A stretch of 64,000 nucleotides of DNA from Clostridium sp. (lineage in GTDB: Bacteria > Bacillota > Clostridia > Clostridiales > Clostridiaceae): assembly GCF_022482905.1 (NCBI RefSeq), contig NZ_JAKVOI010000001.1, positions 3,411,958-3,475,957 on the forward strand, written 5' to 3'. Below the pieces are notes generated by a model. The model was not told where the DNA came from and did not search any database. It was given only the letters and a program-made list of their open reading frames with translations. Below, piece after piece: positions 3-27,263 of the stretch; position 1 is the first letter of the stretch, and every line of letters starts with the position of its first letter. The translations under genes and the position numbers were made by a program.

Positions 3-2567
3 TGCTACGATGGATTAAAAAAACGATATGCCAGCATAACTGATGATTTAATAAACAGGCTTGAATACGAGCTTGGAGTAATAAAACAAATGGGATATGT
101 GGACTATTTTCTCATAGTCTGGGATTTTATAAGATTTGCAAGACAAAATGGAATAATGACGGGACCTGGAAGGGGAAGTGGTGCAGGTTCAATAGTTGCA
201 TATACACTGGGAATAACTAAGATAGATCCAATAAAGTATAACCTCATATTTGAGCGCTTTTTGAATCCCGAAAGAGTATCCATGCCTGATATTGACAGTG
301 ATTTCTGTTATGAAAGGCGTGGTGAGGTAATAGATTATGTAGTAGAAAAGTATGGGAAAAACAACGTTTCACAGATTATAACTTTTGGAACTATGGCGGC
401 AAGAGCATGTATAAGAGATGTGGGAAGAGCTATGAACTATCCTTATGGTGAAGTAGACAGGATAGCAAAGATGATACCAGCCATATTGAATATAACTATA
501 GACAAGGCACTGGATATAAACCCTGAATTCAAGGAAGCCTATGATGGTGAACCCAGAACAAGAGAACTTATAGATGTGGCAAGATCCCTTGAAGGTCTTC
601 CGAGGCATACTTCCACCCATGCTGCAGGAGTGGTAATAGCATCTCAGCCTCTTGTAAATTATGTACCCCTCCAAAAAAATGATGATAATGTAGTAACACA
701 GTTTACAATGGGTACATTGGAGGAACTGGGGCTTCTAAAAATGGATTTTCTGGGGCTTCGTACCCTGACCGTACTTAGAGATGCAGTTGCAATGATAAGG
801 CAGAATAGAAATGTAGAGATAGATCTGGATAATATAAATTATGATGACAAAGCTGTTTACAACATGATAGGAGAGGGAAAGACGGTAGGAGTATTTCAGC
901 TTGAATCTCCCGGAATGACCGTATTCATGAAGGAATTGAAGCCTGATTCCCTGGAGGATATAATAGCAGGAATAAGCTTGTATAGACCGGGTCCCATGTC
1001 AGAAATACCAAAGTATATAAGAAATAAGAATAACCCTGATGATATAGAATACATAACTCCAGAGCTTGAACACATTCTTTCGGTAACCTATGGATGTATG
1101 GTATACCAGGAACAGGTAATGCAGATAGTAAGGGATCTTGCAGGATATTCCATGGGCAGAAGTGATCTTGTGAGACGTGCCATGTCCAAGAAAAAGCACC
1201 ATGTAATGGAAGAAGAAAGGCACAATTTTGTATATGGAATAGTAGATGAAGCGGGTAAAGTTCTTGTTCCGGGATGTATAAGGAACGGGATATCAGATAA
1301 GATTGCAAATCAAATATTTGATTCCATGATAGATTTTGCATCCTATGCTTTTAACAAGTCACATGCCGCCGCATATGCAGTGGTTGCATTTCAGACGGCC
1401 TATTTGATGTATTATTATCCGGTAGAATTTACGGCAGCCATGCTCAACAGTGTAAAGGGTGACAGTGAAAAAGTTGCCTACTACATAAGATTTGCCAAGG
1501 ATATAAATATAGATACGCTTCCGCCTGACATAAATGAAAGCTATGCAAAATTCACAGTTGAGAACAATAGTATAAGATTTGGGCTCTCTGCACTTAAAAA
1601 TGTAGGAGAAAATGCAATAGACAGTATAGTGAAATCACGAAAAAAACACGAAAAATTTAAGGACCTTATGGATTTTTACAACAATATAGAAATAACGTCT
1701 GTAAACAAGAGGGTCATAGAGAGCTTGATCAAATCGGGGGCTTTTGACTGTTTCGGTGTATACAGGTCCCAGCTTATAGAAGTATATGAAAAACTGCTGG
1801 ACAGTGCAAGTAATTCGAAAAAAAGGAATATAGACGGACAGGTGAGCCTTTTTTCAACCATAGATGACAGAAGTATCAGGATACACTACCCGAATATAAA
1901 GGAATTCAAAAAGAAGGATAAACTTGCAATGGAAAAGGAAATGACGGGACTTTACCTGTCAGGGCATCCGCTTGATGAATATGAAAAGACGCTGAAACTT
2001 CAAACAAGTGTAAAGGTTTCGGATATACTCATGGATAAGACACTTGAGGAGGGAATGCTTTCGGAAGCCAAAGTCAAGGATGGAGACAAAGTTATAATTG
2101 GAGGAATATTGGTTGAAGTTTCCAAAAAAATAACAAAGAATAATGACATGATGGCGTTTGCCAGGCTGGAGGATTTGTATGCTTCCATAGATATAATAAT
2201 ATTTCCGAAGACTTTTCAGAAGTTCAAGAACTTCATTTATGAGGACTCCATGCTCATCGTAAAGGGCAGGGTAAGTGTCAGAGAAGAAGAAGAGCCAAAG
2301 GTTTTATGTGAGACTTTGGAGCCGCTTGTAAGAATTGACACTGAAAAATTATATATTTTGATAGAGAATGAGGTAGAATTGAAAGATGCCACTTTGAAAT
2401 TTAAATCCATTATAGAAGGATATAAGGGGAATATTCCTGTATATATATGTATAAAACATGGAAGAAAGAAATTCAGATTGAGCAGTGAATTGTGGATCAA
2501 GGATGAGGAGAATGTTATTGACGATATAAGAAATATTTTTGGAGAAAAAAATGTAAAACTGATCTGA
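3..2567 (+). CDS. dnaE: DNA polymerase III alpha subunit, 5' truncated by window edge
   Basis: Replicative DNA polymerase catalytic subunit. The reading frame is open to the left edge (854 residues visible, usual family length about 1,150-1,200), so the N-terminal PHP domain lies outside the window. The palm carries the family motif PDIDSDF at about bases 285-305, whose first two Asp are the expected metal ligands, preceded by the GPGRGSGAGS segment. Further on are the finger region (YQEQVMQI, FNKSHAAAYA), helix-hairpin-helix region and a C-terminal OB fold (residues roughly 670-760 of the visible part). There is no internal 3'-5' exonuclease, so it is DnaE rather than PolC. It is followed by pfkA and pyk, a neighbourhood common in clostridia and bacilli. 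Stop is TGA at 2565-2567. Confidence 0.97.
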   Translation, partial: CYDGLKKRYASITDDLINRLEYELGVIKQMGYVDYFLIVWDFIRFARQNGIMTGPGRGSGAGSIVAYTLGITKIDPIKYNLIFERFLNPERVSMPDIDSDFCYERRGEVIDYVVEKYGKNNVSQIITFGTMAARACIRDVGRAMNYPYGEVDRIAKMIPAILNITIDKALDINPEFKEAYDGEPRTRELIDVARSLEGLPRHTSTHAAGVVIASQPLVNYVPLQKNDDNVVTQFTMGTLEELGLLKMDFLGLRTLTVLRDAVAMIRQNRNVEIDLDNINYDDKAVYNMIGEGKTVGVFQLESPGMTVFMKELKPDSLEDIIAGISLYRPGPMSEIPKYIRNKNNPDDIEYITPELEHILSVTYGCMVYQEQVMQIVRDLAGYSMGRSDLVRRAMSKKKHHVMEEERHNFVYGIVDEAGKVLVPGCIRNGISDKIANQIFDSMIDFASYAFNKSHAAAYAVVAFQTAYLMYYYPVEFTAAMLNSVKGDSEKVAYYIRFAKDINIDTLPPDINESYAKFTVENNSIRFGLSALKNVGENAIDSIVKSRKKHEKFKDLMDFYNNIEITSVNKRVIESLIKSGAFDCFGVYRSQLIEVYEKLLDSASNSKKRNIDGQVSLFSTIDDRSIRIHYPNIKEFKKKDKLAMEKEMTGLYLSGHPLDEYEKTLKLQTSVKVSDILMDKTLEEGMLSEAKVKDGDKVIIGGILVEVSKKITKNNDMMAFARLEDLYASIDIIIFPKTFQKFKNFIYEDSMLIVKGRVSVREEEEPKVLCETLEPLVRIDTEKLYILIENEVELKDATLKFKSIIEGYKGNIPVYICIKHGRKKFRLSSELWIKDEENVIDDIRNIFGEKNVKLI

Positions 2568-2696
2568 ATAATTTAAAAAACTAATGGTTAAAATTTTAAG
2601 TAGAGAAAGTAAAATAGCCTTATAATGTAGTATAATTTATGTTATAATAAATTTTATAAGATGATTGAAAATGAGCGTGATTATTATAATACGTGT

Positions 2697-2712
2697 GGGA
2701 CAAAAATGTCCC
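2697..2712 (+). promoter_or_regulatory. Hairpin in the pfkA leader
   Basis: A perfect six-base-pair inverted repeat (GGGACA, AAAA loop, TGTCCC) sits about 10 bases upstream of the pfkA Shine-Dalgarno. Several TATAAT-like hexamers lie just upstream (2620-2690). No U-tract follows, so it is not a terminator; a role in mRNA stability or translation is only a guess. Confidence 0.4.
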
Positions 2713-2736
2713 TGTGGTCATGGGAGGTATAAATGT

Positions 2737-3693
2737 ATGAGAACAATAGCTGTATTAACAAGTGGTGGAGATGCTCCTGGTATGAATGCCGCTATAAGGG
2801 CAGTTGTAAGAGCAGGATTAGATAAAAAATTTAATGTGATGGGTATACTTAGAGGATATAGCGGACTGATAAGCGGTGAAATAATACCAATGGACAGGAA
2901 GAGTGTGGCAGATATAATTCAAAGAGGCGGAACAATTTTAAGAACTGCACGCTGTGAAGAATTTAAAACGGAAGAAGGAAGAAAAAGAGGAGCCAATATA
3001 CTTAAAACTTTTGGTATAGATGGATTGGTTGTAATTGGAGGAGATGGTTCTTTTAGAGGAGCCCAGCTGTTATCAAAACTCGGCATAGATACTATAGGAA
3101 TACCTGGAACTATAGATAATGATCTGGCTTATACGGATTATAGTATAGGTTTTGATACTGCTACAAATACTGTACTTGATGCCATAAATAAGTTAAGAGA
3201 TACTTCCACATCACATGAAAGGGTAAGTATAGTTGAAGTCATGGGAAGAAACTGTGGAGATATTGCCCTTTATTGTGGACTGGCAGGAGGAGCTGAAAAT
3301 ATAATTATTCCTGAAAAAGGATATGAGCAGGATAAACTTTGCAGAACCATACTTGAAGGGAAAATGAATGGTAAGATGCATAATTTAATAGTACTTGCAG
3401 AAGGAATTGGCGGGGCAGAAGAACTTGCAAAGCATGTTGAAGAAATAACAGGAATAGAGACAAGGGCTACAAAGCTTGGACATATTCAAAGAGGTGGAAG
3501 CCCGACATGTCAGGATAGAATTTTAGCTTCAAGGTTTGCTTTTAGAGCTGTAGAACTGTTGGAAGAAGGCAAGTCATCAAGAGTTGTGGGAATTAGAGGA
3601 GGAAAAATAGTAGATTTTGATATTGATGAAGCTTTAGAACAAACCAAACAATTTGATGACAAATTGTTTGAAATAGCCAATGCATTATCATAA
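2737..3693 (+). CDS. pfkA: ATP-dependent 6-phosphofructokinase
   Basis: Phosphorylates fructose 6-phosphate to fructose 1,6-bisphosphate, the committed step of glycolysis. The N-terminus [19 protein letters not shown] is the classical ATP-binding start of bacterial PFK; the catalytic segment IPGTIDNDL and the [10 protein letters not shown] segment (substrate binding) are intact. At 318 residues it has the standard length. An in-frame extension to 2665 exists, but the ATG at 2737 has a GGGAGGT ribosome-binding site at 2722-2728 and gives the conserved N-terminus, so I chose it. Followed 45 bases downstream by pyk, presumably co-transcribed. Confidence 0.97.
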
Positions 3694-3738: not shown

Positions 3739-5496
3739 ATGCAAAAGACTAAGATGATTTTTACAATAGGACCTGCTAGCGATACGGAAGAAGTAGTGTC
3801 AAAACTTATTGAAGCTGGTATGAGTGCTTCAAGACATAACTTTTCTCATGGAAACCATGAGGAACACAGAGAAAGAATAAATATGATAAAAAAGCTTAGA
3901 AAAAAGTATAATAAGTCTATAGCAATTATATTGGATACAAAAGGACCTGAAATAAGAACCGGAGATTTTAATAAGGATAAGATTGAATTAGAAGAAGGAC
4001 AGAAATTCACAGTATATTGCGGCGAAGAAATTGTAGGTGACAATACAAAATGTTATATAACCTATGATGGGCTTTGTAAAGATGTAAAAAAAGGTGACAG
4101 CATACTTATAGATGATGGATTAGTAGGTATGGAAGTAGAAAGTGTAGATGGAAACAAAATTAACTGCATAGTCAAGAACAGCGGTGTAGTCAGCAATCAT
4201 AAAGGAGTTAATGTACCGGGTGTTGCTATCAATCTTCCAGCTACTACTAAAAAAGATGAAGAAGACTTGAAATTTGGATGCGAAGTTGGAGTGGATATTA
4301 TATCGGCATCTTTTATAAGAAAGGCTTCAGATGTTTTGACTATAAGAAAGATTCTTGAATCCAACGGTGGAAAGGACATACAGATATTTTCCAAAGTGGA
4401 GAGCCAGGAAGGTGTAGACAATATAGATGAAATAATAAAATTTTCTGATGGAATAATGGTGGCAAGAGGAGATATGGGAGTTGAAATCCCAATAGAAAAA
4501 GTTCCACTGATTCAGAAAACTATAATTGCAAAATGCAACAAGGCAGGCAAACCTGTTATAACAGCTACACAGATGCTTGATTCAATGATAAGAAATCCAA
4601 GACCAACAAGAGCAGAAGCATCTGATATAGCAAATGCTATATTTGATGGAACGGATGCAATAATGCTCAGTGGAGAGTCTGCAAATGGAAAGTACCCTGT
4701 AGAAGCAGCTCAGACCATGGCAAGAATAGCACAGTCTGCAGAGGAAAAAATCAATTATGAAGAATTACTTGAAAAAAAGAAAGAAGCTCATATACAAAAT
4801 GTTGCAAATGCTATCAGTTATGCAGCATGTGCAACTGCTTCCGAGTTAAAGGCAACTGCCATAATTACTGCTACCCAAAGCGGTCATACTGCTAGAATGG
4901 TTTCTAAATACAGATCATCTTGCCCGGTTATTGCGGTAACTCCAAATGAAGGTGTTGCAAGAAGTCTGGCTTTAAATTGGGGAGTATTTCCCATACTTTC
5001 AAAGAAATTTGACTCTACAGATGAGTTGATAGAAAGTTCCGTACAGATATCCTTGAATACAGGCTATGTAAAAAAAGGTGATCTGGTAGTAATAGCTGCC
5101 GGCATACCTGTAAGCTATTCAGGTACTACAAATATGCTGAAAGTTCATGTAGTAGGTGATATATTGGTTAGAGGTACAGGCGCTGGAAGCAGACCTGGAT
5201 ATGGAACTGTAAGAATAGTCAATAGTCCAAAACAGGCAGAAGAAGTTGTGGAGAAGGATGACATACTGGTAGTTAAAAATTTAAGCAAGGATTATATATC
5301 TGTGCTTGACAGAGTTGCAGGAGTCATAGCTGAAGATGGAGGACTTACCTCACATATGGCAATTGAATGTATAACCAATGAAATTCCTATTATATGCAGG
5401 GCAGGTGGTGCTACTGGCGTACTAAAAACCGGTGCATTTATAACCATGGATGCCACAAGAGGGATTGTCTATAACGGCAGAACGAATATTATGTAG
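3739..5496 (+). CDS. pyk: Pyruvate kinase with C-terminal PEP-utilizer domain
   Basis: Transfers phosphate from phosphoenolpyruvate to ADP, the last step of glycolysis. The barrel carries the RxNxSHG start region (SRHNFSHG), the DTKGPEIRTG segment, the catalytic FSKVESQEG lysine region, and MVARGDMGVEIP. At 585 residues it is about 110 longer than the minimal enzyme: the extra C-terminal part (from about residue 480, GTGAGSRPGYG) is a PEP-utilizer-type phosphohistidine-like domain with the GGLTSHMAI motif, as in Bacillus and many clostridial pyruvate kinases. RBS AAGGAGAG precedes the ATG. A strong hairpin terminator follows. Confidence 0.97.
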   Translation: MQKTKMIFTIGPASDTEEVVSKLIEAGMSASRHNFSHGNHEEHRERINMIKKLRKKYNKSIAIILDTKGPEIRTGDFNKDKIELEEGQKFTVYCGEEIVGDNTKCYITYDGLCKDVKKGDSILIDDGLVGMEVESVDGNKINCIVKNSGVVSNHKGVNVPGVAINLPATTKKDEEDLKFGCEVGVDIISASFIRKASDVLTIRKILESNGGKDIQIFSKVESQEGVDNIDEIIKFSDGIMVARGDMGVEIPIEKVPLIQKTIIAKCNKAGKPVITATQMLDSMIRNPRPTRAEASDIANAIFDGTDAIMLSGESANGKYPVEAAQTMARIAQSAEEKINYEELLEKKKEAHIQNVANAISYAACATASELKATAIITATQSGHTARMVSKYRSSCPVIAVTPNEGVARSLALNWGVFPILSKKFDSTDELIESSVQISLNTGYVKKGDLVVIAAGIPVSYSGTTNMLKVHVVGDILVRGTGAGSRPGYGTVRIVNSPKQAEEVVEKDDILVVKNLSKDYISVLDRVAGVIAEDGGLTSHMAIECITNEIPIICRAGGATGVLKTGAFITMDATRGIVYNGRTNIM

Positions 5497-10369: not shown

Positions 10370-10403
10370 AAATTCATTATAGCTTGGCTTCCAAGCTATT
10401 TTA

Positions 10404-10449
10404 GGTGATGGGGTTCACCTTTAACTGCAGTATGCTGATGACTCCTGTA
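10404..10449 (+). ncRNA. Fluoride riboswitch (crcB motif)
   Basis: The sequence carries all hallmarks of the class: GGTGATGGGGTTCACC hairpin, the AACTGC junction, and GCTGATGACTCCTG. The pseudoknot can form between GGGGT in the first loop and ACTCC (10441-10445). Downstream, TAAAATA (10451-10457) pairs with TATTTTA (10466-10472), which places ACTCC opposite the GGGGGG ribosome-binding site (10473-10478). Without fluoride CTCC can mask the ribosome-binding site; with fluoride it is taken by the pseudoknot. No terminator lies between aptamer and gene, so control is probably translational. The gene behind it is crcB. Confidence 0.95.
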
Positions 10450-10485
10450 TTAAAATAAAAATTACTATTTTAGGGGGGAATGAAA

Positions 10486-14281: not shown

Positions 14282-14893
14282 ATGGGAAATAAATTTTATG
14301 CAGTACGGAAGGGAAGAAAGACGGGAATTTGTACAACGTGGGATGAATGCAGAAAATATGTTAAAGGGTATTCTGGTGCCGAATATAAAAGCTTTACCGA
14401 CAAAAAGGAAGCGGAATCCTATTTAAACGGGAGGACATATCGGGATTGTCAAAATAGAGTTGAAAATACATGTACTGAAACTGAAGCTGTCGCCTATGTA
14501 GATGGAAGTTTCAACAGTGAAACAAAAGAATTTTCCTATGGAGCTGTTGTATTCTGGAAAGACAGTGAATATCATTTTTCAGATAAATTTAACGACAGTA
14601 AATTGGCGGAAATGCACAATGTTGCAGGGGAGTTGAAGGGTTCTGAAAGGGCAATGGAATTTGCACTGGAAAATAAAATAAATAAGTTGGTTATCTATCA
14701 TGACTATGAAGGAATAGCCAAATGGTGCACAGGTGAATGGAAGACAAAAAAAGAGGGAACCAGGGCTTATAAAGACTTTTATGACAGTATAAGTCAAAAG
14801 ATAAAGATAGAGTTTGTAAAAGTCAAGGGACATTCGGGCGATAAATACAATGATCTGGCAGATAAACTTGCAAAAAAAGCCATATTTAAGTAA
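14282..14893 (+). CDS. rnhA: Ribonuclease HI with N-terminal RNA/DNA-hybrid-binding domain
   Basis: Cleaves RNA in RNA-DNA hybrids. Residues 1-50 (KFYAVRKGRKTGICTTWDEC, continuing to SYLNG) are the Cauli_VI/hybrid-binding domain; the catalytic RNase H domain begins near residue 68 with Asp in AYVDGSF, Glu in NVAGELKG, Asp in IYHDYEG and the last Asp in YNDLADKLAKKA, so all four acidic residues are present. 203 residues. RBS AGGAG. The stop lies 50 bases from the convergent BcsB-like gene; no strong terminator is visible between them. Confidence 0.93.
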   Translation: MGNKFYAVRKGRKTGICTTWDECRKYVKGYSGAEYKSFTDKKEAESYLNGRTYRDCQNRVENTCTETEAVAYVDGSFNSETKEFSYGAVVFWKDSEYHFSDKFNDSKLAEMHNVAGELKGSERAMEFALENKINKLVIYHDYEGIAKWCTGEWKTKKEGTRAYKDFYDSISQKIKIEFVKVKGHSGDKYNDLADKLAKKAIFK

Positions 14894-14942: not shown

Positions 14943-17090
14943 TTAATTTTTATCGTCGGTAATTTCTTTTTCAGAAAGCTCATGTGCTTCTTTCACTTTC
15001 TTGGCGGCATCTTCAAACTCGTTACTCTTTTTTCTCAATCTTATAACCATTACTATACACAAAATTATAAGCACCACTGCAGCTAAAAGTGTCCACCATG
15101 GAAATCCTGTTTTGCTCTCAGCATATTCTACAGCAGAGGCGAACGTAAGAGGGACTTCTGCAGTTTTTTCCTCCGGTACAGAGCTATTGACAAAACCTAG
15201 TTTGTTGTCAATTACAGATACTTGTCCGCCTATGTTGTCAAGTTTGCCTCTGTCTTTTAAAAGTGTATTGAATGCCTTGAGATTTGACTTGTTGTCATAC
15301 ATTACTACATAAACACTTTTATAAAAATTCCAGGGAGACCTGACTACCTGAACTACGGTTTTGTTCTTAAGTGTCTCAGGGACTTCATTTATTTCATTCT
15401 TTACCTTTGAATTTCCGCTTGCATCAGGATATATTGGAAGAATTTTTTTAAGCTTATCTGGAAAATTTATATCCTTAAAACGTCCTATAAAAATCATATC
15501 TCTATTTTTGTAGTCATCCGGGAGATTAGTAGTCTCCTTTGTTACACTGAAATCCATGACTTTCCCAAGATTTTGACCTATCCTGCCTGCAATTAAAACA
15601 GCTGTGTTTAGTTTATCTGAATCTATGTTTTTGTCAAATGACATGAGAATTCCATCCGGTTTTTGACCGCCATACTTACTTACATAGGGAAAATTTTCAA
15701 GAGAGGGTTGTATACCATATTTCCCGGGTATAAAACATACCTGTGAATCCGAATTTATATAAGTCCAGGCACTGTCAGAATAATCTTTTGAGCAATCAAC
15801 TTTTCCTATGTAATTGTAGACGTCAATGTCGACTTTTATAATAGAATTTTTCAAAGCACTGTCGGGTATTCTGAGCTTAAGGCTGCCATTATCTGAATTT
15901 GAGTCCGAAAGTTTGGAATTTCCTGCAAGTTTGCCATCTATATATACAGTCAATAGTGACTTGTCCGGAATTAGTATTTTTGAGTGCTTAAATTTCAAAT
16001 TTATGTAGGACCCAGGCAGGGCTTTAATTCCACCAATCTGTGAAAATATAAAACTTGTTTTCTGGTGAAAAGCGCCTGCAAGATTTACGTCTGAATAACC
16101 GAAGTCTGAAAATTTGTAAAGTCCCTTTTTATTCTGGGAGAATTTGTTGTATTTTTGCTTTAAATTAGAATTTACAACAAGATTATTCTGTTTTATTTGT
16201 TTTATAATTTTGTCATTTGAAATGAAATCAGAAGCTTTGTCAATTCCAGAATTATCTTTACCACTTATAATAGTTCTGTAGTAGGGCTGGTTTGCTGAAG
16301 TACCGTAAATTGACAAGAATCCCTGATTTGGTTTTAATTTTTCTAGGCTTTTATTGAAACTACTATAAAGTGCAATAAAAATAGAATTTGAATTAAGTTT
16401 AGTATTTATATTTCCCTGCACTGTACTATAATTTAAAGTGTTTCTATCAGGATAAAGTCCACCGATGGAAGAACTTATTTTAAGTACATTTGAAACTAAA
16501 TCTGTATTATTTACATCCGGCAATACAAACTCAGCAGAAAGTAGTTTATTATTGCCATATTCGTCAAAGTAGCAGCTGTAAAAATTAGACAAGTCAGGAA
16601 AATGATAATTTTTATCAGATAAATGTACTTTTGAGTCTTTGTATATTATAACCCAGTTTGCAGGGTTGTCTATATCGGCACAATCTCCAAGTATAGATCT
16701 GTGGTTAGTTTCAATTTTTATTTCGTTAATACTGCCTACATTGAGCCTTGCCAAAGGTATGGCAACCTTCCAACTTGTAGATTTGTCTATTTTCATAAGC
16801 CACTTAGTGCTTACAGGTGCTCCGTTAACACTTAAAGTCATGCTGGAATGGTTGCCAATTAAAGTATTCGAGATAGAATAATGTATGTTTACGTAACAAT
16901 TATCATCAAGTGAAGCACTTTTTGGAATATAAAAATAATAGGAAGAAGTATTTCTAGGCATATTAAAATTTTGATTTTGGTTAAAAAGATTTATATCGTA
17001 AATTTTACCTGAGGCTAACACTGCACCCGATTTTTCAAATACTATTATAGCAAGTGCAACGAATACTATAAAAATAAATTTTTTTTTCAC
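14943..17090 (-). CDS. BcsB-like cellulose synthase accessory protein
   Basis: A 715-residue exported, membrane-anchored protein: signal peptide at 1-27, one C-terminal membrane helix (about 680-702, WWTLLAAVVLIILCIVMVI) and a basic cytoplasmic tail. The extracytoplasmic part fits the BcsB family, with two jelly-roll/flavodoxin-like halves (SYYFYIPKSASLDDNCYVNIHY split here by family repeats; LVVAGRIG-like segment near 500-520). In BcsA-BcsB synthases this subunit guides the nascent polysaccharide out of the synthase. It starts with GTG behind AGGAGGT, 13 bases after the synthase gene, and is the last gene of the operon. No BcsC/BcsZ or cellulase gene is adjacent. Confidence 0.82.
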   Translation of the reverse strand: MKKKFIFIVFVALAIIVFEKSGAVLASGKIYDINLFNQNQNFNMPRNTSSYYFYIPKSASLDDNCYVNIHYSISNTLIGNHSSMTLSVNGAPVSTKWLMKIDKSTSWKVAIPLARLNVGSINEIKIETNHRSILGDCADIDNPANWVIIYKDSKVHLSDKNYHFPDLSNFYSCYFDEYGNNKLLSAEFVLPDVNNTDLVSNVLKISSSIGGLYPDRNTLNYSTVQGNINTKLNSNSIFIALYSSFNKSLEKLKPNQGFLSIYGTSANQPYYRTIISGKDNSGIDKASDFISNDKIIKQIKQNNLVVNSNLKQKYNKFSQNKKGLYKFSDFGYSDVNLAGAFHQKTSFIFSQIGGIKALPGSYINLKFKHSKILIPDKSLLTVYIDGKLAGNSKLSDSNSDNGSLKLRIPDSALKNSIIKVDIDVYNYIGKVDCSKDYSDSAWTYINSDSQVCFIPGKYGIQPSLENFPYVSKYGGQKPDGILMSFDKNIDSDKLNTAVLIAGRIGQNLGKVMDFSVTKETTNLPDDYKNRDMIFIGRFKDINFPDKLKKILPIYPDASGNSKVKNEINEVPETLKNKTVVQVVRSPWNFYKSVYVVMYDNKSNLKAFNTLLKDRGKLDNIGGQVSVIDNKLGFVNSSVPEEKTAEVPLTFASAVEYAESKTGFPWWTLLAAVVLIILCIVMVIRLRKKSNEFEDAAKKVKEAHELSEKEITDDKN

Positions 17091-17103: not shown

Positions 17104-19353
17104 CTAAACATTTAATTTTTCTTTCTGCTTATTGTTAAGAGTAGTGTCTTTTCTTGATGAAACAAGGCCATGGCTTGTCTTTTCCCAGTAAAAAGGATTT
17201 TTTATAAGCTGGAATAACGCCTTATAGGCAGCAACACTCATTAAAAACCAGTACAGTGGGGTTAAAAGGGCATATTTTATAAGTCCATAGGAGAAAGGCT
17301 GTTTTTCCTTAAGGGCACAGTCTCTTATGACCCAGTACATTCCAATCGTATTTGTATATGTAAACATAAAATTTCCAAAGAAAAATTGTATAGAGGCAAT
17401 ATAATAAAATATTCCCGGAAAAAGGGAACTTATCCAGACAGCACTTGTCATATACCACCATGCCATCATAATCCAGAAAAATGGATTTACAATAGGAAGA
17501 AGCGGTGTCCCGAGGACCATTGCCTGATATCCTACAAATCCCCTAAATCCAAGAGATTTATAAAGGCTGACTGGGTGCCTCATGTGAACGAGCCATGTCT
17601 GCATATAACCTTTTATCCATCTGGATCTCTGTCTTATCCAGTTTCCAAGTTTTGAGTTTGCTTCTTCCCAGGTACGGGAATCAACTACTGCAGTTTTATA
17701 ACCTTTCTTGAAAAGACGTACCCCAAGATCTGCATCTTCAGTAACATTAAACGGGTCCCAGGCTCCAACTTCCCTTAAGAAATTTACTTTAAAATGGTTT
17801 GACGTACCTCCTAGAGGTATCGGAGTTTTAAGCTGCATTATTCCAACAAGGAGAAGTTCAAACCACATGCTGTATTCCTGAGTAAACCATTTGGTAAGTA
17901 TATTCTGACTGCTGTTGAAATAATTGAGCTTTGCCTGTATACAGGCGAAATCTTTAGGAAGCTTTTTATAGGAGAGATATACCTTTTTAAGCTGGTCAGG
18001 CTCAGGCCTGTCTTCTGCATCATAGATTACAAGATATTCCCCTCTTGCCCTTATAAGACCGTAGTTGCAGGCCTTAGGTTTTGTCTTAGGTTTGCAGTCA
18101 GGTACAATTATAATTCTGTAATTAAGGGGAAGATCCATATTGTTTAATACCTCGAGTGTTTCTATGTCATCCTTTTCAAGTAGTATGCACACATCGAGTT
18201 TGTATTGTGGATAATCCATTTTTCGAAGATTTTTTATAAGTTTTCCTATTACTTCTTTTTCTTTATACACAGGTATAAGTATCGTATATACAGGGAGCTC
18301 CTTTTCGTCTATTTCATCAAGCTCCTCTTCTGTAAATCTAAGTTGTGCGTCTCTGTTTGAGCCTTTAAGCACTATAAAAAGTTTAAGGAGTGTCATAACT
18401 GCATAAATCAGCTGGAAGAATAGATTTATCAGAAAAAATGCCCCTCGGTAATTTGAAATTATCATAACTAGAAGCAGAAGTAGTACTACTAAAATTATGA
18501 TCTGCTGGTTTCTCGAAAATGTAACTATAGCAGAGTTTTCCGGTTGATTGTCATAAAGTTCAAAAACACTTTTTTCAGTTTGTGTATAACCGTAAACATG
18601 TTCCCAGAAATTATCTATTTCCATCATAGTTGCAAGCACTTGTTCAACTGGCTTATTCAAATAAGATTCAATTTTATCAATATCGGATTTTGGCAGTATA
18701 TCTTTTACTGCAAGAAGATAAGAGTTTTCTCTCTCATTTATTATTATGGCATTGTATTTTAGTGCAACATCGTAGGGAACTCTCCAGGAATTTTTAAAGT
18801 TGAGTTTTCTCCCGATCCTTCCTACACTGTTTTGTGTAGAAAGATCTCTATACAGATCTTCCGGAGTTATATATTTTAAAAATACAAGTATCTCCCCAAG
18901 TCTTCCACCGCTTTTCCTCTGAAGTTCCAGTGCGTTTTCAAGCTGATCCTCCGTTATTTTACCGCTTTCAACAAGCCTTTCACCTATGGGGATTTTCTTT
19001 TTTTTATTTCCCACTTTAAGAAAATTATCCAGTCTGGATTTACCGATAAATTTTAAATAGACAAGTATATCTCCTATTCTGCCGCCGTTTTCCTCCTGGT
19101 ATCTTATAGCTTTTTCAAGCTTTTCCCGGGTTATAATGTTATTTTCCAGCAGTTTTTCTCCAAGTCTTGAATATCTACTGTTATTTACAAAATTTTTAAG
19201 TTCATTCTCTGTTATAAACCCTTTTTTTACAAGTACTTCTCCAATTAGGCCTCCTTGTTTTTTTTGATATTCAAGTGCAATATCAAGTTCATCCCTGGTT
19301 ATGTATCCCATCTTAAGTAGTCTGTTTCCAATTTTATTTAAATTGTTTTCCAT
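17104..19353 (-). CDS. GT2 polysaccharide synthase with N-terminal MshEN-like repeats
   Basis: A 749-residue processive glycosyltransferase. The N-terminal 250 residues contain tandem copies of the GspE/MshEN-type unit: residues about 8-55, 63-110 and 123-170, each with the pattern (R)(L/I)GE-x-L...IT...L..A(L/I).YQ...GG.(I/L)G(E/D).LV, then a fourth degenerate part. MshEN units of this kind are high-affinity c-di-GMP receptors. Two membrane helices follow (about 284-330), then a GT2 domain with DAED (445-448), TED (538-540) and Q575RSRW579, and C-terminal membrane helices. The layout resembles NfrB with the domain order reversed. GTG at 19362 overlaps the ribosome-binding site, so ATG at 19353 behind GAGGTG is chosen. 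Confidence 0.85.
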   Translation of the reverse strand: MENNLNKIGNRLLKMGYITRDELDIALEYQKKQGGLIGEVLVKKGFITENELKNFVNNSRYSRLGEKLLENNIITREKLEKAIRYQEENGGRIGDILVYLKFIGKSRLDNFLKVGNKKKKIPIGERLVESGKITEDQLENALELQRKSGGRLGEILVFLKYITPEDLYRDLSTQNSVGRIGRKLNFKNSWRVPYDVALKYNAIIINERENSYLLAVKDILPKSDIDKIESYLNKPVEQVLATMMEIDNFWEHVYGYTQTEKSVFELYDNQPENSAIVTFSRNQQIIILVVLLLLLVMIISNYRGAFFLINLFFQLIYAVMTLLKLFIVLKGSNRDAQLRFTEEELDEIDEKELPVYTILIPVYKEKEVIGKLIKNLRKMDYPQYKLDVCILLEKDDIETLEVLNNMDLPLNYRIIIVPDCKPKTKPKACNYGLIRARGEYLVIYDAEDRPEPDQLKKVYLSYKKLPKDFACIQAKLNYFNSSQNILTKWFTQEYSMWFELLLVGIMQLKTPIPLGGTSNHFKVNFLREVGAWDPFNVTEDADLGVRLFKKGYKTAVVDSRTWEEANSKLGNWIRQRSRWIKGYMQTWLVHMRHPVSLYKSLGFRGFVGYQAMVLGTPLLPIVNPFFWIMMAWWYMTSAVWISSLFPGIFYYIASIQFFFGNFMFTYTNTIGMYWVIRDCALKEKQPFSYGLIKYALLTPLYWFLMSVAAYKALFQLIKNPFYWEKTSHGLVSSRKDTTLNNKQKEKLNV

Positions 19354-19365
19354 TAAAATCACACC

Positions 19366-20922
19366 TCAATCCGTAACTTTAAATATTTTAAATCCATCAA
19401 ATTCCTTGTATAAAATACACCAATCTTCACCGTGCTTGTACAAATTAGGATATACCCTGTTAAAAGAGTCAAGAGAACCTAAATTTGAATCAGGATCTGG
19501 AACCAATATATATTGGATACCGTATTTAACTGGATTTCTTAAATATTTATTAAAATTTAAACTGCTGCTTACAATAAGATTTCCGACATTATTAACATTC
19601 AATATTATTCCAGAAGTTAAAAATGAATCCATTATAACTTTATAATCAGAAAGATTGTTGTTTATACAATCTGAAATTTCATCATATTCATTACTTACAA
19701 GTACATAATGTTCTTCTACTCCGATTACGGGACTTGAAAGTGCTTTGGCTGCAAATACAGAGGAAGTTATAAGTGAAAATATAAAGATCCAGAAGACAGC
19801 AGGTCTAAAAAATTTTTTAACCTCATGCATTTCATATGGAATAAATGAAATTGTTATAGGAAGTGCATAAGAGAAAAAACGCAGCCACCCGTAGGAACTC
19901 CCTTTAACAAGCATCATAAAATGGAAAACTATCATGGATATAACAACTGCAAAAAGCATAAAAAAGTCACTTTTTAAAAATCTTTTCGTGGCAATTCTTT
20001 CAATAATGACACCCAATAAAGGTATAATAAACGGCAGAGACCTTATAGCCACATATTTTATTATGCCTAAAGTTGAACCGATAGGTTTTGAAAGCTGACT
20101 TTGAACTGTATTTGAATAAACTGAATTTAAAAAATAAAATGGATTTCCAGTAATAGACCAGTTTAAAAATATCCATATGAGAATTCCGTATGCTATAGGT
20201 GCATACAGGACAACTGCAGTTCCCTCTGAATAATAGTACCGTTCATGTTTTTTACTAGCTGGGATAAATTTCTTTTCATTTTTATTGAAAAATATATTTA
20301 TGAGAACAGCAAGGCCAATTCCAGCTGCAAAGGGAATTGCCTCATACCTGCAAAAAAATGCGAAGGCAAGGGAAAATGCTATTTTTACAATGTATTCAGG
20401 ACTCCCTTCGCTCATCCAAAGTGTCATATTTATAACTGAATAAATTGCAAACACAAAGAATATCTGTTCGCTCATTCCATTCATTCCATAAAAGAATATA
20501 AACGGGTTCAGTACATAAAGCAGTATTATAGGCAGTGAATATTTTTTCCCTATCCCGAATCTAGTAAATACTTTGAAAAGCATAACGGCATTAAATGCAG
20601 CAGACGCAGCGGTAACTATGCTTCCAGATATTCCACTGGATACAATAGGCCTCCAGATTTTTGAAAGTTCTACAAAGGGAAGCTGGAGCATACTCGGGAG
20701 TGGGTTCCAGACAAATCCTACAGATGCAAGCCTAAGAGGTTTTATGTAGAGTACGTAAAATGTATTTGCAGTCCTGCTGAAGGCATCATTCAAAAGTATG
20801 CCTTTAAAGTATCCAAGATAAATACCACCTGCAAGCTCTAATATAAATATTATTAAAAATGTTCTAAACGAGTCTTTTGAAGATAATTTTGGAAATATAA
20901 CTTTGTTGTAGCTTTTTACCAT
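19366..20922 (-). CDS. Polytopic membrane protein, GT39/ArnT-like
   Basis: A 518-residue protein with around ten predicted membrane helices and a C-terminal soluble part of about 120 residues. The first extracytoplasmic loop holds an acidic/aromatic region (LNDAFSRTANTFYVLY) similar to the first loop of GT-C glycosyltransferases such as ArnT/PMT, where an Asp is catalytic. This suggests it transfers a lipid-linked sugar, possibly one produced by the neighbouring GT2-GtrA protein. Family assignment is by topology and context, not by a diagnostic motif. It has AAGGAG 11 bases before the ATG and sits 21 bases after the upstream gene. Confidence 0.65.
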   Translation of the reverse strand: MVKSYNKVIFPKLSSKDSFRTFLIIFILELAGGIYLGYFKGILLNDAFSRTANTFYVLYIKPLRLASVGFVWNPLPSMLQLPFVELSKIWRPIVSSGISGSIVTAASAAFNAVMLFKVFTRFGIGKKYSLPIILLYVLNPFIFFYGMNGMSEQIFFVFAIYSVINMTLWMSEGSPEYIVKIAFSLAFAFFCRYEAIPFAAGIGLAVLINIFFNKNEKKFIPASKKHERYYYSEGTAVVLYAPIAYGILIWIFLNWSITGNPFYFLNSVYSNTVQSQLSKPIGSTLGIIKYVAIRSLPFIIPLLGVIIERIATKRFLKSDFFMLFAVVISMIVFHFMMLVKGSSYGWLRFFSYALPITISFIPYEMHEVKKFFRPAVFWIFIFSLITSSVFAAKALSSPVIGVEEHYVLVSNEYDEISDCINNNLSDYKVIMDSFLTSGIILNVNNVGNLIVSSSLNFNKYLRNPVKYGIQYILVPDPDSNLGSLDSFNRVYPNLYKHGEDWCILYKEFDGFKIFKVTD

Positions 20923-20943
20923 AATTTTAAAAATCTCCTTGAA

Positions 20944-22005
20944 TTATTTTCTCCATGTCCACAGTCGGTTTATATTGTAATTCCATAGTATAGAAGCACA
21001 AATTCCAGATAAGTTTGCAGTATTGTAGTTTACTTTAAATTTATAATTTAGAAATATCAGTACTGCAACATCTATAATTATTCCAATTATAGATACAGAT
21101 ATAAATTTAAAAGCCTCGTAAAATACTTTTTTACTTTTTTTATCTTTCCATGTAATGTTTCTGTTCAATGTAAAATTTCCTATCATGGCAGTCAGTGCAG
21201 ACAGCGTTCCCGAAATAGTCACGGAAAGACCAAAGTATATCAAAATATTATATACTATCATATTTACAATGACACCAGAAAATCCTACAAGTGAAAAAGC
21301 AAATATTCTCCTATCATCACTGCTTGAGAGAACCAGCCTAAAAATATGTCTTAAATAGTTGAATTGCTCTTTAAAAGACATCTTTGATTTTCCATACTGT
21401 CTTTTTTCAAATTTGTACGGGATTTCTTTTATATTTTTGTAATTTCCACGTACAAGGATTTCTATAAGTATTTTCCATCCAATAGGATCCAGAGAAATAC
21501 CATCAAGTATATTTTTATTAAAGGCAAAAAATCCTCCTGTGGGATCGGTTATACATCTGAGTTCTTTTAAAAAGAATTTTCCTATAAATAAGGCAGTGTG
21601 AGAAATAAGTTTTCTAAAAATATTAAGCCCATATTCATCTCCACCTGACAAGTGTCTGCTCGGAATTACAATGTCATAGCCATTTTTTAGGTATTTTACC
21701 ATTCCCGGAATAATTTCTGGAGGATGCTGCATGTCTGAATCCATGACTACGATAAGTTTTCCAAGACTCATATTTATCCCTGAAACAACTGCAGTTGCAA
21801 GTCCTCTCTGGTTTTCTCTATGTAAATATTTTATATTTTTATATTTATGTATTAGTTTTTCTATATAGGTTACTGTGTCATCTGTACTGTCATCTACAAA
21901 TATAACCTCGTAATCTAAAATGCCATAAATTACATGTTTTAGTCTATTTGCAATTTTTACAACATTTATTCCTTCATTAAAAGTAGGTATTACTATACTT
22001 ACCAT
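20944..22005 (-). CDS. GT2 polyprenyl-phosphate glycosyltransferase fused to GtrA domain
   Basis: First gene of the exopolysaccharide operon. Residues 1-220 form a DPM1-type GT2 domain (MVSIVIPTFNEG, FVDDSTDDT, VVMDSDMQHPPE, PTGGFFAFN), which transfers a sugar to polyprenyl phosphate. Residues about 230-350 form a four-helix GtrA-like domain, usually thought to flip the lipid-linked sugar. An upstream extension to 22065 is open, but GGGGTGG lies just before the ATG at 22005, which yields the canonical N-terminus; 353 residues. It follows 33 bases after the terminator of the c-di-GMP-II riboswitch. Confidence 0.88.
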   Translation of the reverse strand: MVSIVIPTFNEGINVVKIANRLKHVIYGILDYEVIFVDDSTDDTVTYIEKLIHKYKNIKYLHRENQRGLATAVVSGINMSLGKLIVVMDSDMQHPPEIIPGMVKYLKNGYDIVIPSRHLSGGDEYGLNIFRKLISHTALFIGKFFLKELRCITDPTGGFFAFNKNILDGISLDPIGWKILIEILVRGNYKNIKEIPYKFEKRQYGKSKMSFKEQFNYLRHIFRLVLSSSDDRRIFAFSLVGFSGVIVNMIVYNILIYFGLSVTISGTLSALTAMIGNFTLNRNITWKDKKSKKVFYEAFKFISVSIIGIIIDVAVLIFLNYKFKVNYNTANLSGICASILWNYNINRLWTWRK

Positions 22006-22037
22006 GAAACCACCCCACATAATTACATATAAAGCTG

Positions 22038-22073
22038 AAAAAAACAGCAGCCGACCTGACTTCAAAAGTCGGC
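22038..22073 (-). terminator. Riboswitch expression-platform terminator
   Basis: On the minus strand GCCGAC (22073-22068) and GTCGGC (22055-22050) form a stem with an inner extension, followed by TGCTG and seven T (22044-22038). Its first arm overlaps the 3' end of the aptamer (GGCC), so aptamer and terminator folding compete. Confidence 0.85.
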
Positions 22074-22135
22074 CGGTTGCACTACTAGCTCACTATATAA
22101 AAAGTGCCCAAAATAATTATATAGATCAGCTTCCA
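22070..22135 (-). ncRNA. c-di-GMP-II riboswitch (GEMM-II)
   Basis: Read on the minus strand, the segment carries GGAAGC at the 5' end, then TTTTGGGCACT, a variable hairpin (TTTTATATAGTGAG), and CTAGTAGTGCAACCGGCC. This matches the conserved core of the class-II c-di-GMP aptamer known from Clostridium (GGAAA...TTGGGCACT...TTAGTAGTGCAACCGACC). GGGCACT pairs with AGTGC, and the pseudoknot partner CAACC is present. An intrinsic terminator starts at its 3' edge, then the exopolysaccharide operon follows. Because the terminator arm overlaps the aptamer end, ligand binding most simply turns expression on; direction is inferred. Confidence 0.93.
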
Positions 22136-22142
22136 ACATAAA

Positions 22143-22417
22143 CTATTTTTATAGTATAGTATATTTACAAATCTTAAAATATATTCCAGGAGGGCGAAAG
22201 ATGATCTGTTGCAGAGATTGAATATGTATGGTATTATATAATTGTTTTCAAATGAATGGAGGGTTGCTTAAGAATGCGTATTAGATTCCGATTTACCTTA
22301 TTTAACTAATTTAATAGTGGTTAAAGGCTCTGCTTATGTGTAGAGTAATCGGGATTGATCTGCCTATTTTTAAGAAAATCTTATTAATAATGATAGATGT
22401 TATATTATAATAGAAAG
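22143..22417 (+). other. Divergent region between riboswitch and hflX leader
   Basis: AT-rich. It contains a short plus-strand reading frame at 22274-22309 (11 codons, peptide MRIRFRFTLFN) behind GGAGGG at 22258-22263 and a TATAAT at 22237-22242. The minus-strand promoter for the riboswitch should lie near 22150-22190 (TATACT-like boxes). No longer gene fits. Confidence 0.35.
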
Positions 22418-24927: not shown

Positions 24928-25737
24928 ATGTATTATATTGAAGTAGAGGAAGGTATAAAAATTCTGGTGGATGATCTGAATCCTCGTGGGAAAGATGTCA
25001 TATTCCTTATTCATGGATGGCCTCTGAACCATAAAATGTTTGAATATCAGCTTGATTTGCTTCCTGAATATGGTTATAGGTGTATAAGTATTGATCTAAG
25101 GGGATTTGGAAGTTCAGATAAACCCTGGAAAGGATACTCTTATGACAGACTGTCTGATGACGTAAGGGTTATTATTGAAACACTTGAATTGAAAAACATA
25201 ACTCTTGTAGGTTTCTCAATGGGAGCTGCAGTGGCAATCAGATATATGTCACGATACTATAGCTATAATGTATCAAAACTTGTACTGATGTCTCCAGCTG
25301 CACCATCTTTTACCAGACGCAAAGGATATCCTTATGGCATGGATGTCAATGGAGTTGAGGATTTAATCAGGCAGGCCCGTGAAAATAGACCTGAAATGAT
25401 GGCTGGTATTGGAAAAATATTCTTTGCAGGAAATACAACGGACAATTTTATGAACTGGTTTCAGAATCTTGGCCTGGAGGCTTCAGGACATTCGACCATA
25501 GAAACTGCCAGATCACTTAAAGATGAGGATCTCAGATCTGAGATCAACAAGATTAATGTAACAACAGGTATATTCCATGGTAAAATGGACAAGATATGCC
25601 CATTTGAATTTGCAGAAGAATTGAACAGGGGTATAAAAAATTCTCAGCTTTATCCATTTGAATTCAGCGGACATGGAATTTTCCATGATGAACTGGGAAA
25701 GTTTAATTCCGAGCTCCTTAAATTTATAAAAGGCTGA
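24928..25737 (+). CDS. Alpha/beta-fold hydrolase
   Basis: A 269-residue serine hydrolase. The oxyanion motif FLIHGWPLN, the segment IDLRGFGSSDKP, the nucleophile elbow GFSMGA (Ser at about residue 98), an acid in GKMDKICP and the His in SGHGIFHDE complete the triad. It resembles the arylesterase/haloperoxidase branch; substrate unknown. No signal peptide. It ends two bases before the stop of convergent cls, leaving no room for a terminator. Confidence 0.88.
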   Translation: MYYIEVEEGIKILVDDLNPRGKDVIFLIHGWPLNHKMFEYQLDLLPEYGYRCISIDLRGFGSSDKPWKGYSYDRLSDDVRVIIETLELKNITLVGFSMGAAVAIRYMSRYYSYNVSKLVLMSPAAPSFTRRKGYPYGMDVNGVEDLIRQARENRPEMMAGIGKIFFAGNTTDNFMNWFQNLGLEASGHSTIETARSLKDEDLRSEINKINVTTGIFHGKMDKICPFEFAEELNRGIKNSQLYPFEFSGHGIFHDELGKFNSELLKFIKG

Positions 25738-25739
25738 TA

Positions 25740-27263
25740 TTATGCCAGTGGTGCAAACAGTCTGAGGATAGATTCCAGAATTTTTTTTAAGAAACTTCGT
25801 CTTTCCCAGACTTCCTTATGCACTTTTTTCGATACCATTTTGGTTTTAATGAAATCTCTATAAATTTCATTTATTGCAGGTGTATCATACATATAGGTTG
25901 CACATTCAAAATGTAGGAATAAACTTCTATAGTCCATATTTATTGTTCCAATTACAGCACATTCATCATCGGATACGAAATTTTTACTATGGATGAATCC
26001 AGGCATATACTCATATATTTCCACTCCGGAATCAAGCAGTTTGTCATAATGTGATCTTGTTAGAATCTGAATAATTTTTTTATCCGGGATATGGGGGGTT
26101 ATTATTTTTACATCAACCCCTCTTTTGGCTGCCAGGGAAAGAGCCAAAATCATTTCGTAGCTTATTATCAAATAAGGAGTTGTAATATAGATATAATTTT
26201 TGGCGCTGTTTATTATATTTAAATATATATCCTCGGCTGTACTGTCGAGTCTTTCCGGTCCACTAGCATATGGAATTACTATACCTTCATTCAACATCAT
26301 TTTTTGTGCCAATTTATATCTTTTGATGTCTTCCTTTTTATGAGTTATCGATTGCCACATTTTTAGAAACATCACTGTAAAACTATAAACGGCATCACCT
26401 TCTATGCATACGGCGGAATCCTTCCAGTAACCGTATTTTCTATACAGGTTTATGTATTCATCGCCAATATTGATTCCTCCATTGAAGGCAACTCTTCCGT
26501 CTACTATAACTAGTTTTCTGTGGTCTCTGTAGTTTAGCATAACATTTAAAATAAGTTTCATAGGGTTGAAAATCTTGAATTTTATATTGTTTTCTCTGAG
26601 TATTTTTCTAAATTTGGGAGGAAGAACAAATAGTGAGCCGATATAGTCGACTAAAATTCTGACTTCTACGCCGCTCCTGGATTTTTTCTTCAGTATTTCG
26701 AGAATTTTGTCCCACATTATGCCCTTTGAAATTATAAAATATTCAATGAAAATAAATTTTTGGGCACTTTTCAATTCCTTTATAAGTCTTTTATACATAA
26801 GTTCTCCCGAGGGAAAGTATTCAATTTTTGTATTTGTATAAGCAGGATATCCGCTGATGTTTTTTATAAGTCTTGTTTCATTGTATCGTGCTTTATTCTC
26901 GATTTTAATAGAATGCAACAGTGAAAAATCCTCTTTAGGAAATACTCCTTTCTCAAAACTTATTCTGTTGATCTTACTAAAATTACGTAGTATCCCAATT
27001 CTGGATACGATGTAAATAATTACGCCTATTACTGGGATCAGGAGTATCAATGCTATCCAGCTGATCTTGTAGGAAGTATTTTCGTCCTTGTAATTGAGAT
27101 GAATTACTGCAATGGCACTTATAATTTCAAATGCTATGAAATAGTATATGAAGAATATATTAAATACATTATAAACAAGGGTTATGGCTATAAATTGAAA
27201 TATTACCCAAAATGTAAAGACTATAAATTTAAGAATTGAAATAAATGATTTTCTTTCTCCCAT
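25740..27263 (-). CDS. cls: Cardiolipin synthase
   Basis: Membrane phospholipase-D superfamily enzyme making cardiolipin from two phosphatidylglycerols. Two N-terminal membrane helices (about residues 10-60) precede two HKD motifs: HRKLVIVDGRVAFNGG (about 220) and HSKNFVSDDECAVIGTINMD (about 400). 507 residues, typical of bacterial ClsA/B type. A GTG at 27272 overlaps the AGGTG ribosome-binding site, so the ATG at 27263 is chosen. The zinc-ribbon gene lies 30 bases upstream in the same direction. Confidence 0.95.
   Translation of the reverse strand: MGERKSFISILKFIVFTFWVIFQFIAITLVYNVFNIFFIYYFIAFEIISAIAVIHLNYKDENTSYKISWIALILLIPVIGVIIYIVSRIGILRNFSKINRISFEKGVFPKEDFSLLHSIKIENKARYNETRLIKNISGYPAYTNTKIEYFPSGELMYKRLIKELKSAQKFIFIEYFIISKGIMWDKILEILKKKSRSGVEVRILVDYIGSLFVLPPKFRKILRENNIKFKIFNPMKLILNVMLNYRDHRKLVIVDGRVAFNGGINIGDEYINLYRKYGYWKDSAVCIEGDAVYSFTVMFLKMWQSITHKKEDIKRYKLAQKMMLNEGIVIPYASGPERLDSTAEDIYLNIINSAKNYIYITTPYLIISYEMILALSLAAKRGVDVKIITPHIPDKKIIQILTRSHYDKLLDSGVEIYEYMPGFIHSKNFVSDDECAVIGTINMDYRSLFLHFECATYMYDTPAINEIYRDFIKTKMVSKKVHKEVWERRSFLKKILESILRLFAPLA

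Follow-up and report, generated by a model that had tools for sequence, protein, structure and literature searches.

A GEMM-II riboswitch heads an operon for an MshEN-bearing polysaccharide synthase in Clostridium: a candidate case of one second messenger read by both RNA and protein

Cellulose synthase, in which BcsA carries a PilZ domain and is accompanied by the subunit BcsB, is a synthase activated by cyclic di-GMP (c-di-GMP) with a BcsB-type partner. Our analysis of a 64,000 nucleotide stretch of a Clostridium sp. genome (contig NZ_JAKVOI010000001.1; hereafter the window) revealed an operon in which a c-di-GMP-II (GEMM-II) riboswitch aptamer precedes the gene for a glycosyltransferase family 2 (GT2) polysaccharide synthase with N-terminal MshEN modules, a domain type likewise associated with c-di-GMP. 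Escherichia coli offers a related case, in which c-di-GMP is described as having a dual role, on transcription of the wec operon and on the activity of the synthase NfrB, whose MshEN domain binds c-di-GMP with residues that matter for N4 infection (PMC8669469). The window operon resembles NfrB/NfrA in combining an MshEN-bearing GT2 synthase with an action of c-di-GMP, predicted in the window, at two levels of one polysaccharide pathway. However, MshEN is C-terminal in NfrB and N-terminal in the window synthase, the partner is NfrA there and BcsB-like here, and the transcriptional tier there acts via a protein on another operon, the word "riboswitch" being absent from the text (PMC8669469). The Listeria PssA-E system is comparable in being Gram-positive and in having a BcsB-like component (PssD), with PssE as the receptor, and the paper states that Listeria has no identifiable c-di-GMP-sensing riboswitches (PMC4125290). 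In both BcsA and Listeria the receptor is a PilZ or a degenerate GGDEF domain, unlike the MshEN of the window synthase. Class II aptamers are known from C. difficile, where most are transcriptional ON switches and one lies on a type IV pilus operon; unlike in the window, the targets listed for class II comprise a pair of surface proteins, CmrRST and the pilin operon (PMC11477304), and the words cellulose, PilB and polysaccharide (at word start) were not found in the text of that paper.

The aptamer lies on the minus strand at 22062-22143 and matches Rfam RF01786 over its full length (model positions 1-84). The original prediction had made itself dependent on a GEMM-II score above threshold, and the covariance-model search of the window returned 66.8 bits at 22143-22062, above the gathering score of 53.5, with E 9.4e-13. 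Since the whole genome of 3.57 Mb contains three GEMM-II aptamers, and the same operon is headed by one in three further species, a chance match can be set aside. An intrinsic terminator follows at 22048-22075 on the minus strand (10-pair stem and U-run, -15.2 kcal/mol). Its 5' arm is formed by the 3' strand of aptamer helix P1 plus the immediately preceding bases, with 10 arm bases inside the aptamer, and a ligand-held P1 and the terminator are therefore mutually exclusive. Judged by sequence and fold energy alone, this is an expression platform that excludes P1, and the leader has the predicted layout of a transcriptional ON switch, the direction reported for all but one of the class II switches of C. 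difficile (PMC11477304). A terminator scan of the window found 4 terminator-like sites compared to 4.9 in shuffled sequences, so this terminator carries weight because it overlaps the aptamer and not through the scan alone. The aptamer and terminator had been predicted at 22038-22135 on the minus strand; both are there, though the coordinates were a few bases off.

In the synthase (17104-19362, minus strand), three MshEN modules lie in tandem (residues 10-62, 66-118 and 125-177), each consisting of two 24-residue motifs separated by a 5-residue spacer. Three stretches match the NCBIfam c-di-GMP_motif model NF053729 (175.3 bits vs a cut-off of 38, E 1.4e-52), and Pfam MshEN (PF05157) scores 29.9 bits against 23.1, with its best stretch at residues 193-260. 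Each half retains 8 to 10 of the 10 positions checked, with Arg or Lys allowed at the first. Fusions of MshEN with glycosyltransferases are reported, as is binding of c-di-GMP by several of the sequences tested (PMC5013675). The protein also matches GT2 families, and the TED and QxxRW motifs of this domain are invariant in all eight aligned sequences, the window included. Identification as NfrB was ruled out by the equivalog score (85.7 vs 1170 bits) and by the order of domains, with MshEN before GT2 instead of the reverse, and identification as BcsA by a TIGR03030 score of 54.8 vs 699.1 bits and the lack of a PilZ match. Apart from the synthase, a single further MshEN-bearing open reading frame (ORF) was found in this genome, near 1576.4 kb (484 amino acids, 39.6 bits), and GGDEF matches number nine.

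Four minus-strand genes with intergenic gaps of 21, 3 and 13 nucleotides make up the operon, and together they probably produce a surface sugar polymer. The first (20944-22005) encodes a GT2 protein with a GtrA/DPMS membrane domain, a predicted polyprenyl-phosphate-sugar synthase (PF00535, 2.6e-29; PF04138, 4.1e-23). Its start is the ATG at 22005, preceded by GGGGTGG; the TTG chosen by the ORF tool (22065) falls within the aptamer. The second gene (19366-20922) encodes a membrane protein resembling PMT/GT-C enzymes, with a family match below the cut-off (PF13231, E 6.4e-4, 20.4 bits vs 26.1). Its relatives are also below that cut-off at L025 (2.3e-4) and L145 (2.3e-5) and show no match at L021 and L055 (labels with L and G are ours, for loci and genomes). 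The synthase gene is third, and the ORF map and profile scores thus agree with the description of four co-directional genes whose third product has MshEN repeats. The fourth gene (14943-17090), which falls outside the range of 17104-22135 first considered, encodes a BcsB-like synthase subunit (PF03170, 2.1e-33, 116 bits vs a curated cut-off of 21) with, as judged by eye, a signal peptide and a C-terminal membrane helix; the scores for the six listed NCBIfam BcsB models all stayed below the respective cut-offs. The operon ends here, since the next gene, for an RNase H (14282-14893), runs on the plus strand.

Relatives of the synthase were found in 8 of 206 Clostridiaceae genomes, and in four of the eight, one being that of the window, an aptamer stands at the head of the operon. 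RF01786 scores ahead of the other three operons are 54.6 bits in G001 (same genus), 65.7 in C. carboxidivorans and 65.8 in C. drakei. In the latter two species a ManC-like nucleotidyltransferase gene comes first and the PMT-like and DPMS-like genes are swapped; the C. carboxidivorans ManC-like protein scores 290.8 bits vs an equivalog cut-off of 372.95. Because the first gene differs and the order is swapped, the aptamer is tied to the head of the operon and not to one particular gene. The pairing of riboswitch and synthase thus persists between species even though the order of the genes has changed. The overlap of terminator arm and aptamer end is likewise present in all four clostridial leaders, by 10 bases in C. 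carboxidivorans and C. drakei and by 6 in G001 (range 6-10). The letters of the terminator vary between these species and the complementarity of its arms is retained; in six other leaders examined the terminator begins at the AACC core. More widely, ManC-, BcsB-, PMT- and DPMS-like genes recur near the synthase in many Bacillota loci. In C. akagii (L016/L051) the MshEN-GT2 and PMT-like genes are surrounded, as read by eye, by clustered genes of pilin-like and pilus-assembly-like type.

Taken together, we consider it likely that one c-di-GMP signal is read twice, by the transcript and by the enzyme, for the production of one exopolysaccharide. Both sensors, the overlap of P1 and terminator, the layout of the operon and its conservation are features of the sequence itself; the binding of c-di-GMP, the direction of both switches and the polymer with its chemistry are predicted from them. 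At low c-di-GMP the leader would fold into the terminator and transcription would halt before the operon. At high c-di-GMP P1 would be held, the terminator blocked and the four genes transcribed. The synthase would itself be gated, in that its N-terminal MshEN modules would have to be occupied by c-di-GMP before the GT2 domain polymerises. The BcsB-like subunit would aid exit of the polymer, and the GtrA-type GT2 together with the GT-C-like protein probably attach a lipid-carried sugar to the polymer outside the membrane. Since related operons contain ManC-like genes, the sugars may include mannose.

Several observations weigh against such a double reading. No promoter was called directly upstream of the window aptamer. 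The G001 leader exceeds the cut-off by only 1.1 bits, has AA where GG is usual at the base of P1 and carries a weak terminator (-6.6 kcal/mol). None of the three MshEN modules is complete, some halves having no first Arg/Lys, turn Gly or last Gln. In C. akagii, G149, G086 and G090 no aptamer was found at the gathering score, nor at E up to 1 with our own models. One of these models was derived from 26 class II aptamers and the other from 20 class I aptamers; of the 88 sources searched with them (85 distinct), six have a GEMM-II-like aptamer immediately before the synthase operon. Among 47 synthase-bearing genomes searched with stricter filters, which do not include those of L034 and L052, 41 contain a class I and 14 a class II aptamer over the cut-off, so the absence at other operons is not for want of riboswitches. 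At L071, L079, L080, L097 and L099 at least, the stretch upstream of the match is shorter than 2.5 kb, and an aptamer further off would have been missed there.

The losses in the MshEN modules invite the explanation that the RNA tier alone is live and that the repeats have become structural or serve oligomerisation, no longer binding c-di-GMP. The second half of module 1 is without Arg and Gln, module 2 is without the turn Gly in both halves and without Gln in the second, and module 3 has Pro for Arg in its first half and no turn Gly in its second; moreover, the number of modules is variable, with 2 to 4 motif stretches matched among relatives. However, the RLG triplet retains its Gly in every half, and Leu, Ile or Val occupies the hydrophobic Leu positions, and it is the loss of these Gly and Leu residues that is reported to abolish or strongly reduce binding (PMC5013675). 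With both Gln retained in module 3 and a profile score far above its cut-off, we regard a purely structural role as unlikely. A leader working in reverse, with c-di-GMP promoting termination so that the two tiers oppose each other and give a pulse or a ceiling, would find a precedent in C. difficile, where c-di-GMP switches run in both directions. There, however, class I switches are OFF and class II switches ON, the single class II exception acting on translation (PMC11477304), and in the window the 5' arm of the terminator is the 3' strand of P1, which leaves the two structures exclusive. We therefore consider a reversed leader highly improbable.

The control might also be as proposed and the product be something other than a free matrix polymer. 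PMT-like and DPMS-like genes are typical of protein or cell-wall glycosylation, so that glycosylation of a surface protein or pilus, or a cell-wall glycan, could be served instead, and by eye the C. akagii synthase at L016 sits in a cluster with pilin-like genes. On the other hand, the synthase has a BcsB-like partner, its GT2 domain has both TED and QxxRW, the signatures of processive synthases, and the same ManC-, BcsB-, PMT- and DPMS-like companions surround the synthase in many Bacillota loci. Such a product is conceivable, but we give it a rather small chance. Production of an exopolysaccharide under double c-di-GMP control remains our preferred reading.

What the two tiers might contribute was explored with a simple model in which two gates with equal, independent, hyperbolic sites are multiplied. 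The product has a Hill coefficient of 1.19, and a steep AND response was rejected as the main benefit. In the model, basal output is 0.01 with both tiers and 0.09 with either alone, about tenfold lower leak, and a pulse of 0.1 protein lifetime yields an output of 0.02 with both tiers vs 0.08. Half a lifetime after a pulse of two lifetimes, output stands at 0.52 if the RNA tier acts by itself, at 0.09 if the protein tier does and at 0.05 if the two are combined, so it is the protein tier that provides the quick shut-off. When the protein sensor was made cooperative (n = 2), Hill coefficients were 1.56 to 2.00 across the three affinity ratios tried. According to this model, the gain is lower leak and rejection of short pulses, and steepness would need a cooperative tier. 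The double control would then chiefly provide low leak, a damped response to short pulses and immediate shut-off, and not a steep dose curve. The original prediction of one messenger acting on both transcription and synthase is thus partly supported, in that both sensors score as family members, the leader has an ON layout and the pairing is conserved, but its sharp AND-type response is not supported, two hyperbolic sensors giving a Hill coefficient of about 1.2. The locus would represent a small natural circuit with a single messenger gating both the synthesis of an enzyme and its activity, each gate being separately removable. It would allow the benefit of layered c-di-GMP control, be it in leak, timing or steepness, to be measured directly.

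GEMM-II aptamers are frequent in Clostridiaceae: at E up to 1e-7 they are present in 108 of 200 genomes, in 101 of which the score exceeds the cut-off. To see which genes they precede, 60 GEMM-II places were sampled with up to 5 kb downstream (four of the 60 are shorter than 5 kb); they were taken from the upper part of the match list, with some tandem neighbours skipped, and the sample is thus biased to strong scores. Relatives of the MshEN-GT2 synthase, of the BcsA at L144 and of the BcsB-like protein were sought in them, and other c-di-GMP receptors may exist there. Like the window, four of the 60 places pair GEMM-II with an effector that has a c-di-GMP-type domain. At two (L195, L203) the aptamer heads a PilZ-bearing cellulose-type synthase; an MshEN-bearing T2SSE/PilB-type ATPase is headed directly at L184 and is encoded by the second gene at L201. 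The effectors there are unlike that of the window in being a cellulose-type synthase or a pilus/secretion ATPase. The Pfam tally covers 58 places, as L160 and L165, both of full length, have no ORF of 80 amino acids starting beyond nucleotide 70. Among the 58 first genes, 11 encode chemoreceptor signalling domains and 9 response regulators, and double-sensor cases are therefore a minority of GEMM-II targets. The other two GEMM-II aptamers of the window's own genome (L019 and L020; near 445.9 kb and 908.5 kb) precede chemoreceptor genes, in one case for an sCache methyl-accepting chemotaxis protein and in the other for a periplasmic-binding protein followed by a methyl-accepting chemotaxis protein.

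Beyond Clostridium, named genomes were scanned for relatives of the synthase; 571 were obtained, and the best 80 of them were kept as loci. The six operons with an aptamer comprise the four clostridial ones and two Sporolactobacillus loci, L052 (49.3 bits) and L055 (30.3 bits), both under the Rfam RF01786 cut-off. In what we take, from the published class II structure, to be the pseudoknot, GCACU/AGUGC is replaced by GUGCC/GGCAC, so that three of five pairs are changed on both sides with pairing intact. A search pattern for this recoded form matched 3 of 26 genomes of L055's family, 1 of 398 genomes of its class, which is the L055 genome itself, and, in a sample of 391 genomes from the class of the window, none; the reversed control pattern had no match in any row listed. 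All four recoded places found, three from the family search plus L052, precede synthases with a c-di-GMP-type domain, three being MshEN-GT2 synthases and the fourth (L144, genome G262) a PilZ-bearing cellulose-type synthase. At L144 the aptamer core lies near 590-630, some 330 nucleotides before the PilZ-BcsA gene. This gene is followed by one without a match and then by MBOAT, AlgX-like and GH5 genes, an arrangement that resembles an acetylated-cellulose operon. In all four recoded aptamers a terminator starts at the aptamer core. Neither a recoded nor a class II-like aptamer was found at L053, L054 and L057, which are other Sporolactobacillus synthase loci.

In a tree of 59 synthases the riboswitch-bearing members occupy two separate places. 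Support is 99/95 for the Clostridium group and 100/100 for the Sporolactobacillaceae, within which the three aptamer-bearing members come together at 94/67 only. Rows from Desulforamulus and Desulfosporosinus, which have no aptamer, are nested inside the Clostridium group (100/99), and a further gain or loss is therefore needed there. The tree leaves out duplicates (L013, L014, L016), short rows (L039, L064), L029, for which no long ORF was labelled, and all of L077-L100, and it carries a long-branch warning for L066, L074 and L051. On balance we lean slightly towards viewing the reading of one second messenger by both RNA and protein as a recurrent, repeatedly evolved design in Bacillota, with the Sporolactobacillaceae form as a separate GEMM-II subfamily below the cut-off. 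Its members would be GEMM-II with MshEN-GT2 in Clostridium, the recoded GEMM-II with MshEN-GT2 or PilZ-BcsA in Sporolactobacillaceae, and GEMM-II with PilZ-BcsA or MshEN-PilB in Clostridiaceae.

Known sensors and known types of effector are thus joined in an arrangement that is new and recurrent. Judged by title and the start of the abstract, none of the open-access matches listed describes a c-di-GMP riboswitch heading an MshEN-synthase operon, and to that extent the earlier statement that no such clostridial system is described still stands; the system is less singular than it implied, given the PilZ-BcsA and MshEN-PilB cases and the dual control described for NfrB, the closest precedent among those matches. 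Furthermore, our results suggest that an MshEN-GT2 polysaccharide system is widespread in and outside the Bacillota, C. carboxidivorans and C. drakei being among its carriers, and that the Sporolactobacillaceae form may be a new subfamily of aptamers.

Aptamers near two further synthase loci were not counted as support. The tandem c-di-GMP-I-GGC aptamers at Cohnella L047 are separated from the synthase by a minus-strand ORF and head another gene; the two, near-identical and 117 nucleotides apart (4551-4749), stand before a secreted-protein-like gene. The c-di-GMP-I aptamer of an Acetobacterium metagenome-assembled genome (L025, 16-103, 72.5 bits) lies at a contig end, about 620 nucleotides before the first ORF, which opens with a transposase domain; in this ORF (726-3413) the transposase domain is run into the PMT-like gene. 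Matches at L084 (15.1 bits, E 0.25), L100 (16.6 bits, E 0.99) and window position 25720-25771 (14.5 bits, E 0.42) were regarded as noise. Elsewhere in the window, a fluoride riboswitch is present on the plus strand at 10395-10454 (52.2 bits vs 34).

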